Positions 3,115-29,162 of a DNA stretch of 32,910 bases are shown in pieces. This DNA is from an uncultured Bacilli bacterium. GTDB taxonomy: Bacteria; Bacillota_I; Bacilli_A; RF39; UBA660. A model generated the notes under the pieces. That model had not been told where the DNA came from. It saw nothing but the letters and a program-made list of their open reading frames with translations, and ran no database searches. Position 1 is the stretch's first letter. Each line of letters opens with the position of its first letter. Both the position numbers and the translations under genes were made by a program. Location of the stretch: positions 1-32,910 of the forward strand of contig CALVKI010000048.1 in assembly GCA_944332635.1 (NCBI GenBank), given 5' to 3'.

Positions 3115-3157
3115 CTATTAATTTAACGTTTATGTTTTGGATAAAATAAAAAAGAGA

Positions 3158-3335
3158 ATGACTATGTCAGTTTGACAAATTAACTAGAAAAGAAGTAGAA
3201 GAAGAAATAAAAAAAATACGTTCATTGGTATAATAACGAACGTATTCAAAAGAAATTGGGATACTTGTCTCCTGTGCAGTATATTTAAATTAAATAATCT
3301 TTTTATTTAGTGAGTACTTGACAGGTACTAGTATC
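3158..3335 (+). pseudogene. Decayed right end of an IS3-family element (transposase C-terminus)
   Basis: Read on the plus strand, two frames joined by one indel give TRKEVEEEIKK and then YVHWYNNERIQKKLGYLSPV followed by QYI and a stop at 3286-3288. This is the conserved C-terminus of IS3 OrfB. The frameshift lies in the A8 run at 3209-3216. Downstream, TTTAGTGAGTACTTGACAGG (from 3306) looks like the element's terminus. The same coding tail plus the same terminus recurs, inverted, at 27322-27450. It differs from the intact element at 1-1300, so it belongs to another IS3 subgroup. The upstream body has been lost. Confidence 0.78.
3209..3246 (-). terminator. Hairpin terminator inside the IS3 remnant, antisense to the transposase
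   Basis: On the minus strand AATACGTTC, a 14-base loop and GAACGTATT form a perfect 9-bp stem followed directly by a run of Ts (the A8 run of the plus strand). It lies about 100 bases past the stop of the ferritin-like gene, with no other terminator between, so it probably ends that transcript. Confidence 0.7.
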
Positions 3336-3348
3336 AAACTCTTTCTTT

Positions 3349-3837
3349 TTATTTTGCTGTTGCTATTAAAAAGTTATATTTATTTGCATGTCTTAATTCA
3401 TCTGTTAATATTGACATTAATAATGTATAACTATTCCCACTTGGCATAGCCCCTAAAATTTTTCTGTATCTTACTACTGCGTTAAGTTCACCAAATAATG
3501 CTTTTTCTAAATTCTCTTTATAATTTTGTGAATTTATTTTTCTTGGAATTGGTGTTATTGGTAGTTGTTGACCTGTAAATTGATAATATAGATTTCGTAA
3601 TATCTGATTATGTTTTATCTCATCTTCTTTGATGTTTTGTATGATTTTTTTTGCTTTATCGGTAGGTGCTTGTAATATTAGATCATTATAGAATATTTCA
3701 TCTTCTTGTTCATCTGCCACTGATTTTTTTATTAGTTCAATTGCTTGATATAAAGTAATTATTTCATTATTTCCTATCGAATTTCTAATATCAATTGCAT
3801 TAGCAAATTGATTATACATATTATATTCTGAGTACAT
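3349..3837 (-). CDS. Ferritin-like di-iron protein (rubrerythrin-type)
   Basis: This is a 162-residue four-helix protein with a complete set of likely di-iron ligands: Glu43, Glu73-x-x-His76, Glu117 and Glu147-x-x-His150. The repeated ExxH pattern defines the ferritin-like/rubrerythrin superfamily. The C-terminal rubredoxin domain of classical rubrerythrins is absent. Such proteins handle iron or peroxide, and spore-formers often have similar short ones (for example YhjR of Bacillus), so a role in oxidative stress or sporulation is an inference only. TAAGGAGG stands at ideal distance before the ATG. The gene follows the deoxyribosyltransferase-like gene by 15 bases and probably shares its transcript. 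Its terminator appears to be borrowed from an IS3 remnant. Confidence 0.85.
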   Translation of the reverse strand: MYSEYNMYNQFANAIDIRNSIGNNEIITLYQAIELIKKSVADEQEDEIFYNDLILQAPTDKAKKIIQNIKEDEIKHNQILRNLYYQFTGQQLPITPIPRKINSQNYKENLEKALFGELNAVVRYRKILGAMPSGNSYTLLMSILTDELRHANKYNFLIATAK

Positions 3838-4770: not shown

Positions 4771-5460
4771 TTAAGTATTCAATGCTATATCATCCCAATC
4801 AGTTAATTTTGATATTAACCATTCTAAACCTTTTCTTCTTTCCATTACAACTTCTGGATTAAGATTTCCAATACTAGTATCAGGGTTAATTCTTTTTTCT
4901 TCACAAGCCCAATGATAACGATAATATAAATCTAACATATCTAAAACTTCTTCAATACTTCTTAATTTACATTTATTTTTAAATTCTTCATAGTCATAGC
5001 AATCTCCAACTAATGTTATTGCTTTCATGCAGTCGCAAATCTCGCTAGCATCTTTTATATCATCAATTAATCCTAATGCCCAGACTAATGACCAGTATGC
5101 TTCGTAATTCCATGTAACATCTATGGCATCTTGCTTACTATAGGTGTGATTAAACAATCTTTTTTCCTTAGCAAGCAATTGATTTTCAACCTTATATTCT
5201 TTTAATAATCCTAAAAATAATTCTTTTGATTCTTCATAATTATTATTTAATTGGATGTCTGAAGCTAATTGAATAGCTAGTAAACTAGCTATTGCTCTTT
5301 GACATATGGTATCTAAATCTTTTAATTCCACAGCAAGACTAGTTTCAACTAGAGGTAAAGTTTCTAAATATGCAATACCTTTTTGTTTGATATATTCTTC
5401 ATTTTTTCTTTTTCTTTCTTCTGGAGAAACGAATTTATTATTACCTATTTTTTCCATCAT
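4771..5460 (-). CDS. DUF4272 family protein
   Basis: This is a 229-residue soluble protein that matches the DUF4272 pattern. It has a charged N-terminal segment with RKRKNEEYIKQKGI. The centre is aromatic (DVTWNYEAYWSLVWALGLID, about residues 115-134) and is followed by CDCMK. The C-terminus is MERRKGLEWLI...WDDIALNT, the usual last motif of the family. Its function is not established. It has no signal peptide or membrane segment. Two adjacent ATGs (5460 and 5457) follow GGAGG; the second has the better spacing. It lies 17 bases after the 162-residue gene and is almost certainly co-transcribed with it. A pairing with secreted-toxin immunity loci has been noted for some DUF4272 genes, but no toxin gene is visible here. 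Confidence 0.75.
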   Translation of the reverse strand: MMEKIGNNKFVSPEERKRKNEEYIKQKGIAYLETLPLVETSLAVELKDLDTICQRAIASLLAIQLASDIQLNNNYEESKELFLGLLKEYKVENQLLAKEKRLFNHTYSKQDAIDVTWNYEAYWSLVWALGLIDDIKDASEICDCMKAITLVGDCYDYEEFKNKCKLRSIEEVLDMLDLYYRYHWACEEKRINPDTSIGNLNPEVVMERRKGLEWLISKLTDWDDIALNT

Positions 5461-27081: not shown

Positions 27082-27321
27082 ATGATGAACTTAAGCATTA
27101 GAGAACATATTATTAATAATTTTAAAGGAGACAACTATGATACTTTGAAAAGAGCAATCGATGAATCCGTTGCTTCACAAGATGAAGTCACTCTACCTGG
27201 GCTTGGAGTGTTTTTAGAAATTATTTGGGAAAATGCAGACCAAGAACTTAAAAATCAATTGATTGATATTATCAAAAAACGAGTTGAAAAAGGACTTGAG
27301 GAAGAAAATAAAGTAGATTAA
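27082..27321 (+). CDS. sspI: Small acid-soluble spore protein I
   Basis: This 79-residue protein is a minor small acid-soluble spore protein, made in the forespore. SIREHIINNFKGDNYDTLKR and the conserved core LPGLGVFLEIIWENADQ (about residues 38-54) match Bacillus SspI. The acidic, helical C-terminus is also typical. Two adjacent ATGs (27082 and 27085) follow AGGAGGG. A consensus sigma-G promoter drives it. This is the only clear sporulation gene of the window and is the main evidence that the organism forms endospores. It is divergent from the YgjP-type operon. Its stop lies about four bases from a decayed IS3 end, whose internal hairpin (27411-27446) probably ends its transcript. Confidence 0.92.
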   Translation: MMNLSIREHIINNFKGDNYDTLKRAIDESVASQDEVTLPGLGVFLEIIWENADQELKNQLIDIIKKRVEKGLEEENKVD

Positions 27322-27450
27322 TCTCTATCTCTTGTCAAACACTCACTAAAAATGAAAATTAGTCATATTAAAACCTATATTGACGAAATAATAAACATTC
27401 AAGTTTTATAAGTACGTTCTTTGTTATAACAATGAGCGTATTTTTTATGT
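27322..27450 (-). pseudogene. Second decayed IS3-family right end (inverted copy)
   Basis: On the minus strand, KYAHCYNKERTYKT followed, after one base, by LNVYYFVNI aligns with KYVHWYNNERIQKKLGYLSP at 3158-3335. Beyond it, TTTTAGTGAGTGTTTGACAAG matches the terminus of that copy (TTTAGTGAGTACTTGACAGG). Farther into the gap (near 27495) LFGKIKS fits the FFGxLKSE motif of OrfB, so more of the transposase may survive, heavily decayed. The orientation is opposite to the copy near 3.2 kb. Confidence 0.7.
27411..27446 (+). terminator. Probable sspI terminator formed by the IS3 remnant
   Basis: AGTACGTTC, a 14-base loop and GAGCGTATT form a 9-bp stem with two G-U pairs, followed by T6. It lies 90 bases past the sspI stop. 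Stem and loop lengths equal those of the hairpin at 3209-3246, because both derive from the same transposase codons. Confidence 0.65.
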
Positions 27451-28301
27451 CTTTTATAGTATTGAAACATAAATTTTGTAAATACTTTTAATTTTGCCAA
27501 ATAAACATATGTCTAAGAAAATAAATTATTCATTTTTATATAATGATAATACCTTTTACATGATTTATTTTAATTAATAACATTGTATTTGATGTAAATA
27601 GTGATACAATCTTTGCATTGTAGAGATGGGTAATAGCAGATAAATATAGAATTTTATCTTTCTATTTAATATAGCTTATATCAGATAAAATTTTGCTTTA
27701 TTTTTTCTTTAAACTGTTAACTTTTTTAGAGATTTTTATAGTTATGATTCTAATATTTTTTATCTTCTAATTATTTTTCCATTTAATATTATTTTTTATT
27801 TCTATATTTATTATTTTGAAGATGATAGTTTTATCTTAGGTTCATACTTGGTTGTGTATTGTGATATTGTTTTAATATTATTTTGTACTGATATCGTTAT
27901 AATTATTAATTGTATTTAATGTTTATGTTTTTATGTCTTCACTAATATTCATTCATATCCATTTCATGTTACTTAGTATGATTTTTTATAGAAAAAGCAT
28001 CAAGTTTTGATATATCCATACTATCCAGTTTTTGATTGTTTTTTTATAATTATTCTTTACAAACTTTCTTTTACATATTCTTTATTTCAATCACTAACAG
28101 TTGTTAAGATTGAAGAAACTTATTCATCATATATGATATAATTGATTCTTATTTATTCTTTTAAAATTTTTTATGGTTGTAGTAGTCCTTTTTTTCCATG
28201 AAAAAACACCTTCAAAACTCATTCTAAATAAATATTAGCATATATTTATATTTTTTATTTAGAGCAAGCTTTAAAGGTATTATAATTTTAGCTTATCTTT
28301 T
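27451..28301. other. Gene desert, probably decayed DNA
   Basis: No intact gene is visible on either strand in about 850 bases. The part next to the IS3 remnant may be its decayed body. The rest is very AT-rich, with scattered short minus-strand frames such as MEKKDYYNHKKF (near 28200). A plus-strand promoter-like pair with a following hairpin at 27583-27710 is treated separately. I see no tRNA, rRNA or known riboswitch. Confidence 0.5.
27583..27710 (+). ncRNA. Candidate short transcript with alternative hairpins (uncertain)
   Basis: TTGTAT (27583-27588), a 16-bp spacer and TGATACAAT (27602-27610, an extended -10) make a good promoter. About 40 bases on, TTTTATCT can pair either with AGATAAA before it (27638-27644) or with AGATAAAAT after it (27683-27691). 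The second hairpin is followed by a T-rich stretch. No downstream gene lies on this strand. In such AT-rich decayed DNA this may be chance. Confidence 0.2.
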
Positions 28302-29126
28302 TTATTGCATTTCTTTAAAGAAGATAGTTTTTTCTACTACCATTTTAATGTCTGTATCATTAAATGGCTTTCTTATCATATCTACTATTGGGTAGGTAAA
28401 TGCTCTATCAATCGTCTCTTTACTTGCATCTCCTGAGATTATTGATACGGGCATTTCTTGTAATAGGTTGTTTTCTTGCATATAATCTAATACTGCAAAA
28501 CCATCTATTTGTGGCATGTTTAAATCTAGTAAAATCGCTTTGATATTATTAAAACCTCTGTTCGCTTCAATAATTTCTAATGCTTCTTTTCCGTCTTTTG
28601 CTACTCCCACTGTATAAGAATCACTGAATATTCTACTAACAAAGTTTCTAACAATATTAGAATCATCTACTACTAAAATTGTTGGTACTGTATATACTTC
28701 TCTAGAAGTTATAATAGTTCTTTTTTCAGTTCCTTGTGTTGCTTTTTCTGATGATGATGCTGGATTCTCTTCTCCTAAATACTGTTTAATCACATGAATT
28801 AAACGATTAACCTCATTTATTAGTTCATCATAAGTTTCATATATATAATAAACGTCTCCTACCTTACTTTTCATTTCATGACTTTCTGCTAATTCTGCTA
28901 ACTTGGTAAAACCAAAATATCTTGCATCACTTTTTAAAGAATGCGCATAAATTGCATAATTATTCATATCTTTACTATTTTTATACTCTTCTAGCTTTGG
29001 TAGCTTAGAAGATGCACCTAGAATAAATTCACCAATCGTATCATTATATGTTTTGATATCCCCAAATAACTCTAAGCTTTTTTCAATGTCAATTCCATTT
29101 TCTTTTAAAAAATCTACATTCATCAT
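28302..29126 (-). CDS. Hpt-receiver protein (phosphotransfer domain fused to a response regulator)
   Basis: The protein has about 274 residues and combines two signalling domains in an unusual order. The N-terminal histidine phosphotransfer domain (about 1-115) has His62 in YAHSLKSDARYFG. A low-complexity linker (120-145, ENPASSSEKATQG) leads to a CheY-like receiver with Asp154-Asp155, phospho-acceptor Asp201 (ILLDLNMPQIDG) and Lys253 (IRKPF). There is no DNA-binding or enzyme output domain and no membrane segment, so it likely relays phosphate. No kinase is adjacent. The ATG at 29126 or 29123 follows GAGG. Its own promoter is at 29163-29191. Confidence 0.88.
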   Translation of the reverse strand: MMNVDFLKENGIDIEKSLELFGDIKTYNDTIGEFILGASSKLPKLEEYKNSKDMNNYAIYAHSLKSDARYFGFTKLAELAESHEMKSKVGDVYYIYETYDELINEVNRLIHVIKQYLGEENPASSSEKATQGTEKRTIITSREVYTVPTILVVDDSNIVRNFVSRIFSDSYTVGVAKDGKEALEIIEANRGFNNIKAILLDLNMPQIDGFAVLDYMQENNLLQEMPVSIISGDASKETIDRAFTYPIVDMIRKPFNDTDIKMVVEKTIFFKEMQ

Positions 29127-29162
29127 AATCCTCAATCCTTTTACTTACTTTATCTTATGTTA

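Follow-up and report, generated by a model that had tools for sequence, protein, structure and literature searches.

Within the IS3 family of insertion sequences (IS), IS1397 and ISKpn1 have a transposase that directs insertion into palindromic units, or repetitive extragenic palindromic (REP) sequences, between genes (PMC1525189), and IS1272 and TnSha1 of the IS1182 family recognise no particular primary sequence but insert into hairpins, several of which are confirmed gene terminators (PMC4923244). The present analysis concerns an insertion sequence represented by a right-end remnant and a whole decayed copy in a stretch of 32,910 nucleotides (the window; contig CALVKI010000048.1 of assembly GCA_944332635.1, from an uncultured RF39-type Bacilli bacterium), the remnant beside a ferritin-like gene and the decayed copy beside the spore protein gene sspI. 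We put at roughly 0.78 the probability that this element of RF39-type Bacilli and some relatives targets the loops of terminators and carries two inward-facing intrinsic terminators, which would replace what insertion splits.

With IS1397 and ISKpn1 the element shares its family and the targeting of palindromes (PMC1525189). Their target is the repeated REP sequence, whereas the targets of the present element are terminators of varied sequence, and the portion of that report consulted describes no replacement terminators (PMC1525189). IS1272 and TnSha1 have a transposase of another family, and their insertion removes part of the stem as a blunt deletion and duplicates no target (PMC4923244). 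The present element, in contrast, leaves the arms in place, is bordered by 3-4 bp duplications and carries its own terminators, and with its IS3-family transposase, retained arms and duplications it falls outside the IS1272 type (IS1182 family). Group IIC introns insert beside intrinsic terminators; these retroelements, which recognise hairpin DNA resembling RNA, insert after the loop, whereas the present element inserts in it. In IS10, IS50 and IS200, transcripts that enter from outside, and no others, fold into a structure that either masks the start of the transposase gene or terminates transcription. A comparable shielding is predicted for the present element, which differs in the additional predicted antisense terminator in its transposase codons and in a target choice that fits this function. 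ISPpu9 is a member of the IS110 family. It inserts into palindromic REP targets of Pseudomonas putida, and its transposase is controlled by structure in the 5' untranslated region and by antisense RNA (PMC8450116); this control operates through small RNAs (sRNAs), without replacement of a host terminator. In a search of open-access papers, which did not extend to ISfinder, no account was found of a terminator-loop-targeting element with replacement terminators, or of an antisense terminator within transposase codons.

The source genome (1.45 Mb in 112 contigs, 71% complete) contains an intact copy on contig C54 as well as several contig-end, degenerate and remnant copies. The intact copy is 1253 bp long and carries orfA (5068-5334; HTH_Tnp_1, PF01527) and, in a different frame, orfB, an open frame of 310 amino acids, which is the IS3-type arrangement. 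OrfB contains an rve core with the DD(35)E signature of the family, in which the catalytic residues D87, D143 and E179 are invariant, and matches NCBIfam transpos_IS3 with 188 bits (cut-off 160) as well as Pfam rve and rve_2. The ends form terminal inverted repeats as in the IS3 family, the left one (IRL) starting with GATTATAATACC and the right one (IRR) ending with GGTACTAGTATC, and target duplications of 3-4 bp border 9 of 16 copies, in keeping with the inverted repeats and 3-5 bp duplications that define this family. Given a 3-nt circle junction, a TTGACA in IRR and a TATAAT in IRL, candidates for the -35 and -10 of the circle-junction promoter typical of the family, would lie 18 bp apart. 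Judged by the features tested, the element is a member of the IS3 family.

Close relatives were found in RF39-type Bacilli, e.g., Candidatus Pelethosoma merdigallinarum, and two further families of the class contain more divergent ones (genomes G553 and G846). Among plasmid records, no relative exceeded about 37% identity. With the G846 copy, the design extends past the RF39-type lineage. This copy (L204), from a single-contig genome of another family, has GGATAC..GTATCC outer pairs and one in-frame TGA. In a 0.8-Mb genome (G051; L153-L158), a divergent form of the element lies at the breaks of several contigs and is therefore multi-copy there.

The flanks of the copies show insertion into the loops of pre-existing host intrinsic terminators, mostly bidirectional, as predicted from their sequences. 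Left flanks end with an A-run and an arm, and right flanks start with an arm and a T-run. In the 16 copies with two flanks, the flanks pair into terminator-like hairpins; their mean duplex was -11.8 compared with -8.0 (sd 0.58) when the flanks were permuted, and the observed value was reached in 0 of 100,000 permutations. The best example comes from G553 (L203), where the junctions read AAAAAGACCGCAAT|IS|AATTGCGGTCTTTTTTTT, and matching arms (AAAAAAACGAGTTTA and TTAACTCGTTTTTTTT) also occur at the ends of contigs C2 and C11 of G051. Where an open reading frame lies no more than 60 bp away, the nearest one is directed into the element at 22/26 left ends and 22/25 right ends, with its stop codon mostly at a distance of 12-16 bp.

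The alternative that survives best, although we regard it as unlikely, is that the element merely survives at gene ends, its hairpins guarding the transposase from outside transcription, so that the apparent targeting would be selection after insertion. Convergent intergenic spots are safe sites, and other elements (IS10, IS50 and IS200) are known to shield their transposase genes from outside transcription. In addition, IS3 insertions between convergent genes are over-represented generally (PMC9208149). Insertion nonetheless falls within the loop, between two complementary arms and at 12-16 bp from the stop codons, too exact a placement for selection alone to explain. Targeting of host terminator loops would be the reason that element remnants are found at gene ends.

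At the left end, the inverted repeat AATACCTTTAAAGTTC pairs with GAACTTTGGAGGTATT ahead of the orfA start, with a U-run directly behind, in 18/18 copies, with fold energies of -19 to -30 kcal/mol and z scores of -3.5 to -7.0. Covariation in this stem was above that in all 500 shuffles, and the ribosome-binding site of orfA lies within the 3' arm. An internal promoter is likely to lie inside the loop of the hairpin, so that the stem would form only in transcripts that enter from outside. A stable hairpin followed directly by a U-run, as expected of an intrinsic terminator, is present at the left end and, on the opposite strand, at the right end.

The right-end hairpin is seen in the remnant at 3158..3335 (plus strand), which has 82% identity with the intact copy (element positions ~1046-1236 of the query) and comprises the last part of orfB, the 3' untranslated end and the right inverted repeat (3299..3335, plus strand); the left part of the element has been deleted. 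The repeat ends with GGTACTAGTATC, an end identical in all copies, and includes the -35-like TTGACA. As the first-pass annotation had it, the plus strand encodes the last IS3 transposase codons (KKYVHWYNNERIQKKLGYLSPVQY, matching the C-terminus of IS3-family OrfB), and the minus strand of these codons forms a perfect 9-bp hairpin followed by a T-run from the Lys codons. This predicted antisense terminator (3214..3247, minus strand, within the codons for KYVHWYNNERI; GAATACGTTCGTTATTATACCAATGAACGTATTTTTTTTATTTC at 3215-3246) is lengthened by G.U and A-U pairs to a 13-bp stem of -13.2 kcal/mol (z -5.8; equalled in 0/200 shuffles), and its U-run (3208..3214, minus strand) lies directly after the stem. 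The loop closes to 8 nt, and not to the 14 bases first proposed. The plus strand folds more weakly and lacks a T-run behind the fold.

The ferritin-like gene (rubrerythrin domain; 3349..3837, minus strand) faces the right end of the remnant and reads into it, and the stem lies about 100 nt beyond its stop codon, the distance originally given. The first-pass annotation also saw no other terminator there, probably because the original is split, its likely arms lying just outside the remnant at 3143..3156 (AAAATAAAAAAGAG) and 3339..3355 (CTCTTTCTTTTTATTTT), which are complementary across it, the latter overlapping the ferritin-like stop codon. Taken alone this match is modest, since 145/3000 random 30-mers pair equally well. 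No empty site could be demonstrated for the ferritin-like gene among the two congeneric relatives, whose downstream regions were not alignable here. The next gene downstream encodes an ABC transporter in the same direction, with a promoter-like site past the hairpin.

Across copies, the codons of the right-end stem show a departure from ordinary usage. All OrfB relatives of at least ~50% identity found by protein search, decayed fragments aside, use TAC and CGT (once TGT) in the stem, whereas relatives below ~47% identity have different codons there, for the most part TAT and AGA, and lack the stem. In OrfB overall, the share of TAC among Tyr codons is 34% and that of CGT among Arg codons 26%, compared with 12/12 and 11/12 at the stem, and when the same peptide was recoded by the codon usage of the element, the observed antisense energy was reached in 0-11 of 1000 recodings for each of 13 copies. 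In a set of 27 distinct variants, 95.2% of pair cells were standard pairs, falling to 28-52% when the structure was slid, and covariation exceeded that in all 500 shuffles. Compensatory changes of the kind that the first-pass annotation suggested looking for are found, and some of them alter the protein: G086 and G051 have G-C in place of C-G, by replacement of His with Glu and Glu with Gln, and L116 and G553 have G-C in place of U-A, by replacement of His with Gln and Asn with Thr. The outer A-U pair has changed to G-C in G846, and the divergent copies in both other families retain the stem despite amino-acid changes. These comparisons support the view that the stem stays paired to a greater extent than the protein and codon usage would require, in line with the terminator built into the transposase codons that was predicted at the outset. 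Short A-rich matches in G180 and G513 map to the Lys/Glu-rich segment that precedes the stem and were discounted as low-complexity sequence.

Slightly less probable again than survival at gene ends is the alternative that the orfB hairpin serves the transposon itself, as a transposase binding site in DNA, a structure in the sense mRNA or the terminator of an antisense sRNA, with termination of the neighbouring gene as a by-product. The sense strand also forms the stem, although less well, and antisense sRNAs with predicted terminators control other elements such as ISPpu9 (PMC8450116), but the U-run is on the antisense strand only, the antisense fold gives the stronger signal in most of the synonymous-codon comparisons, and the stem is retained by dead copies at gene ends. 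That the hairpin is a chance outcome of conserved Lys, Tyr, Glu and Arg codons in an AT-rich genome is very improbable: a generic scan of the window did find only 6 terminator sites against 3.5 in shuffles, but codon choice contrary to usage, covariation with amino-acid changes and the lack of the stem in all relatives below ~47% identity, with their TAT and AGA codons, speak against it, and the covariation and recoding tests reject it unless relatedness accounts for both.

The second copy lies behind sspI (small acid-soluble spore protein I, Pfam SSPI; 27082..27321, plus strand), whose stop codon abuts its right end. Originally taken for a short remnant, it proves to be the right end of an entire but decayed element (27320..28287, minus strand) traced from left to right end by collinear blastn blocks and lying between sspI and a convergent Hpt/response-regulator gene (28302..29135, minus strand; Pfam Response_reg and Hpt), which reads into the left end of the copy. 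About 75% of its interior sites match intact copies, yet both hairpins form. The antisense hairpin (27411..27442, plus strand) faces sspI with a T-run behind (-13.3 kcal/mol, z -4.0); where coding sense has been lost, two G.U pairs keep it paired, as first described, around a loop of ~4 nt. The left-end hairpin has its 5' arm in the left inverted repeat (28265..28281, minus strand) and its 3' arm and T-run at 28200..28220 (minus strand), in the former orfA ribosome-binding site, where GGAGG is now GAAGG; its 17-bp stem (-25.0 kcal/mol) includes one double change from T-A to C-G. In 14/15 congeners a compact two-way terminator (e.g., AAAAAAAGGAAAACTAATTTCCTTTTTTTT) spans the sspI stop codon, with the convergent gene directly next, and it is at this stop codon that the element begins in the source genome. 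In these congeners (L209-L223), the sspI terminator overlaps the stop and last codons of the gene itself and is common to it and the convergent gene, so that nearly no spacer is left.

Retention of the hairpin in dead copies shows in a direct comparison: in four such copies from the whole-element search (C108, C17, G178 and G506), bases unseen in any intact copy occupy 8/157 hairpin sites, against 33/190 sites of the 57 nt next to the hairpin (Fisher p 0.0004). One further copy (G323) has lost its right end and retained its left. The slower decay of the stem that the first-pass annotation had anticipated is thus observed, decayed copies keeping the stem better than adjacent sequence. Its suggestion of adoption by host genes does not hold as a chance property of codons adopted later, and simple adoption of a remnant was rejected as incomplete given the flanks and the left-end terminator; replacement of a terminator fits better, with an element that targets host terminator loops and has a matching inward terminator at its other end.

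Several observations weigh against this reading. Flank pairing is weak for the copies of C54, G178 and G846, three right-end neighbour genes point away from the element, and the host arms at the ferritin-like locus are degraded. The 27 variants were collected by a similarity pattern, which favours like sequences (the protein-based hits are free of this), and the copies are related, so the shuffle counts and codon tests overstate independence. Wobble specific to the antisense strand was weakly favoured, with 12 against 3 changes (p 0.035) when the apical pair is omitted and 12 against 9 when it is included, and selection on the antisense strand alone, when tested from the direction of wobble, received weak support only.

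In the mechanism that we propose, insertion would split a host terminator and both terminators of the element would substitute for it. At the right end, an antisense transcript from the neighbouring gene would meet the 13-bp hairpin and U-run encoded by the final codons of orfB; at the left end, a sense transcript from the other neighbour would include the inverted repeat, which would pair with the Shine-Dalgarno region of orfA next to a U-run, and this hairpin would both end the outside transcript and mask the orfA start site. The 5' arm would be missing from a transcript that starts at the internal promoter. Because the terminators of the element would substitute for the split one, insertion would do little harm and the transposase would be shielded from outside transcripts on both strands. 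That RNA polymerase stops at the predicted terminators, and why this would be selected, we infer. Dead copies have kept one or both hairpins, the antisense one at the ferritin-like gene and both at the sspI/response-regulator pair, because, we propose, the neighbours now depend on them. The account as a whole, of an element that insulates itself, homes to bidirectional terminator loops, holds one terminator under dual selection with its transposase codons, inserts near-neutrally and leaves dead copies as working host terminators, appears to us moderately probable. It would indicate how a mobile element could spread harmlessly in small gene-dense genomes, by striking a site whose function is restorable, and would give dead transposons a route to becoming host regulatory parts. 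It would also make one stretch of DNA subject to selection as protein code on one strand and as a regulatory RNA signal on the other, with compensatory amino-acid changes as the footprint.

In the window as a whole, no match to any curated Rfam family was found at gathering score. A second IS3-family element of another subgroup lies at 14-1260, with intact frames and 34% identity to the C54 OrfB; its matching codons are TAT and AGA, and it forms no stem. Elsewhere in the source genome, a symmetrical terminator directly after a gene (L024, G000:C64:9128-9165; AAAAAATACGTTCATGGTATAACTATGAACGTATTTTTT) closely resembles the hairpin of the element without other element sequence, and is either derived from it or convergent. 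Internally deleted derivatives with both ends were found at L152:1494-1585 (G040; 91 bp), L086:1418-1710 (G178; 292 bp) and L122:2423-2763 (340 bp), and these, lying in terminator-like flanks, are possible non-autonomous forms.
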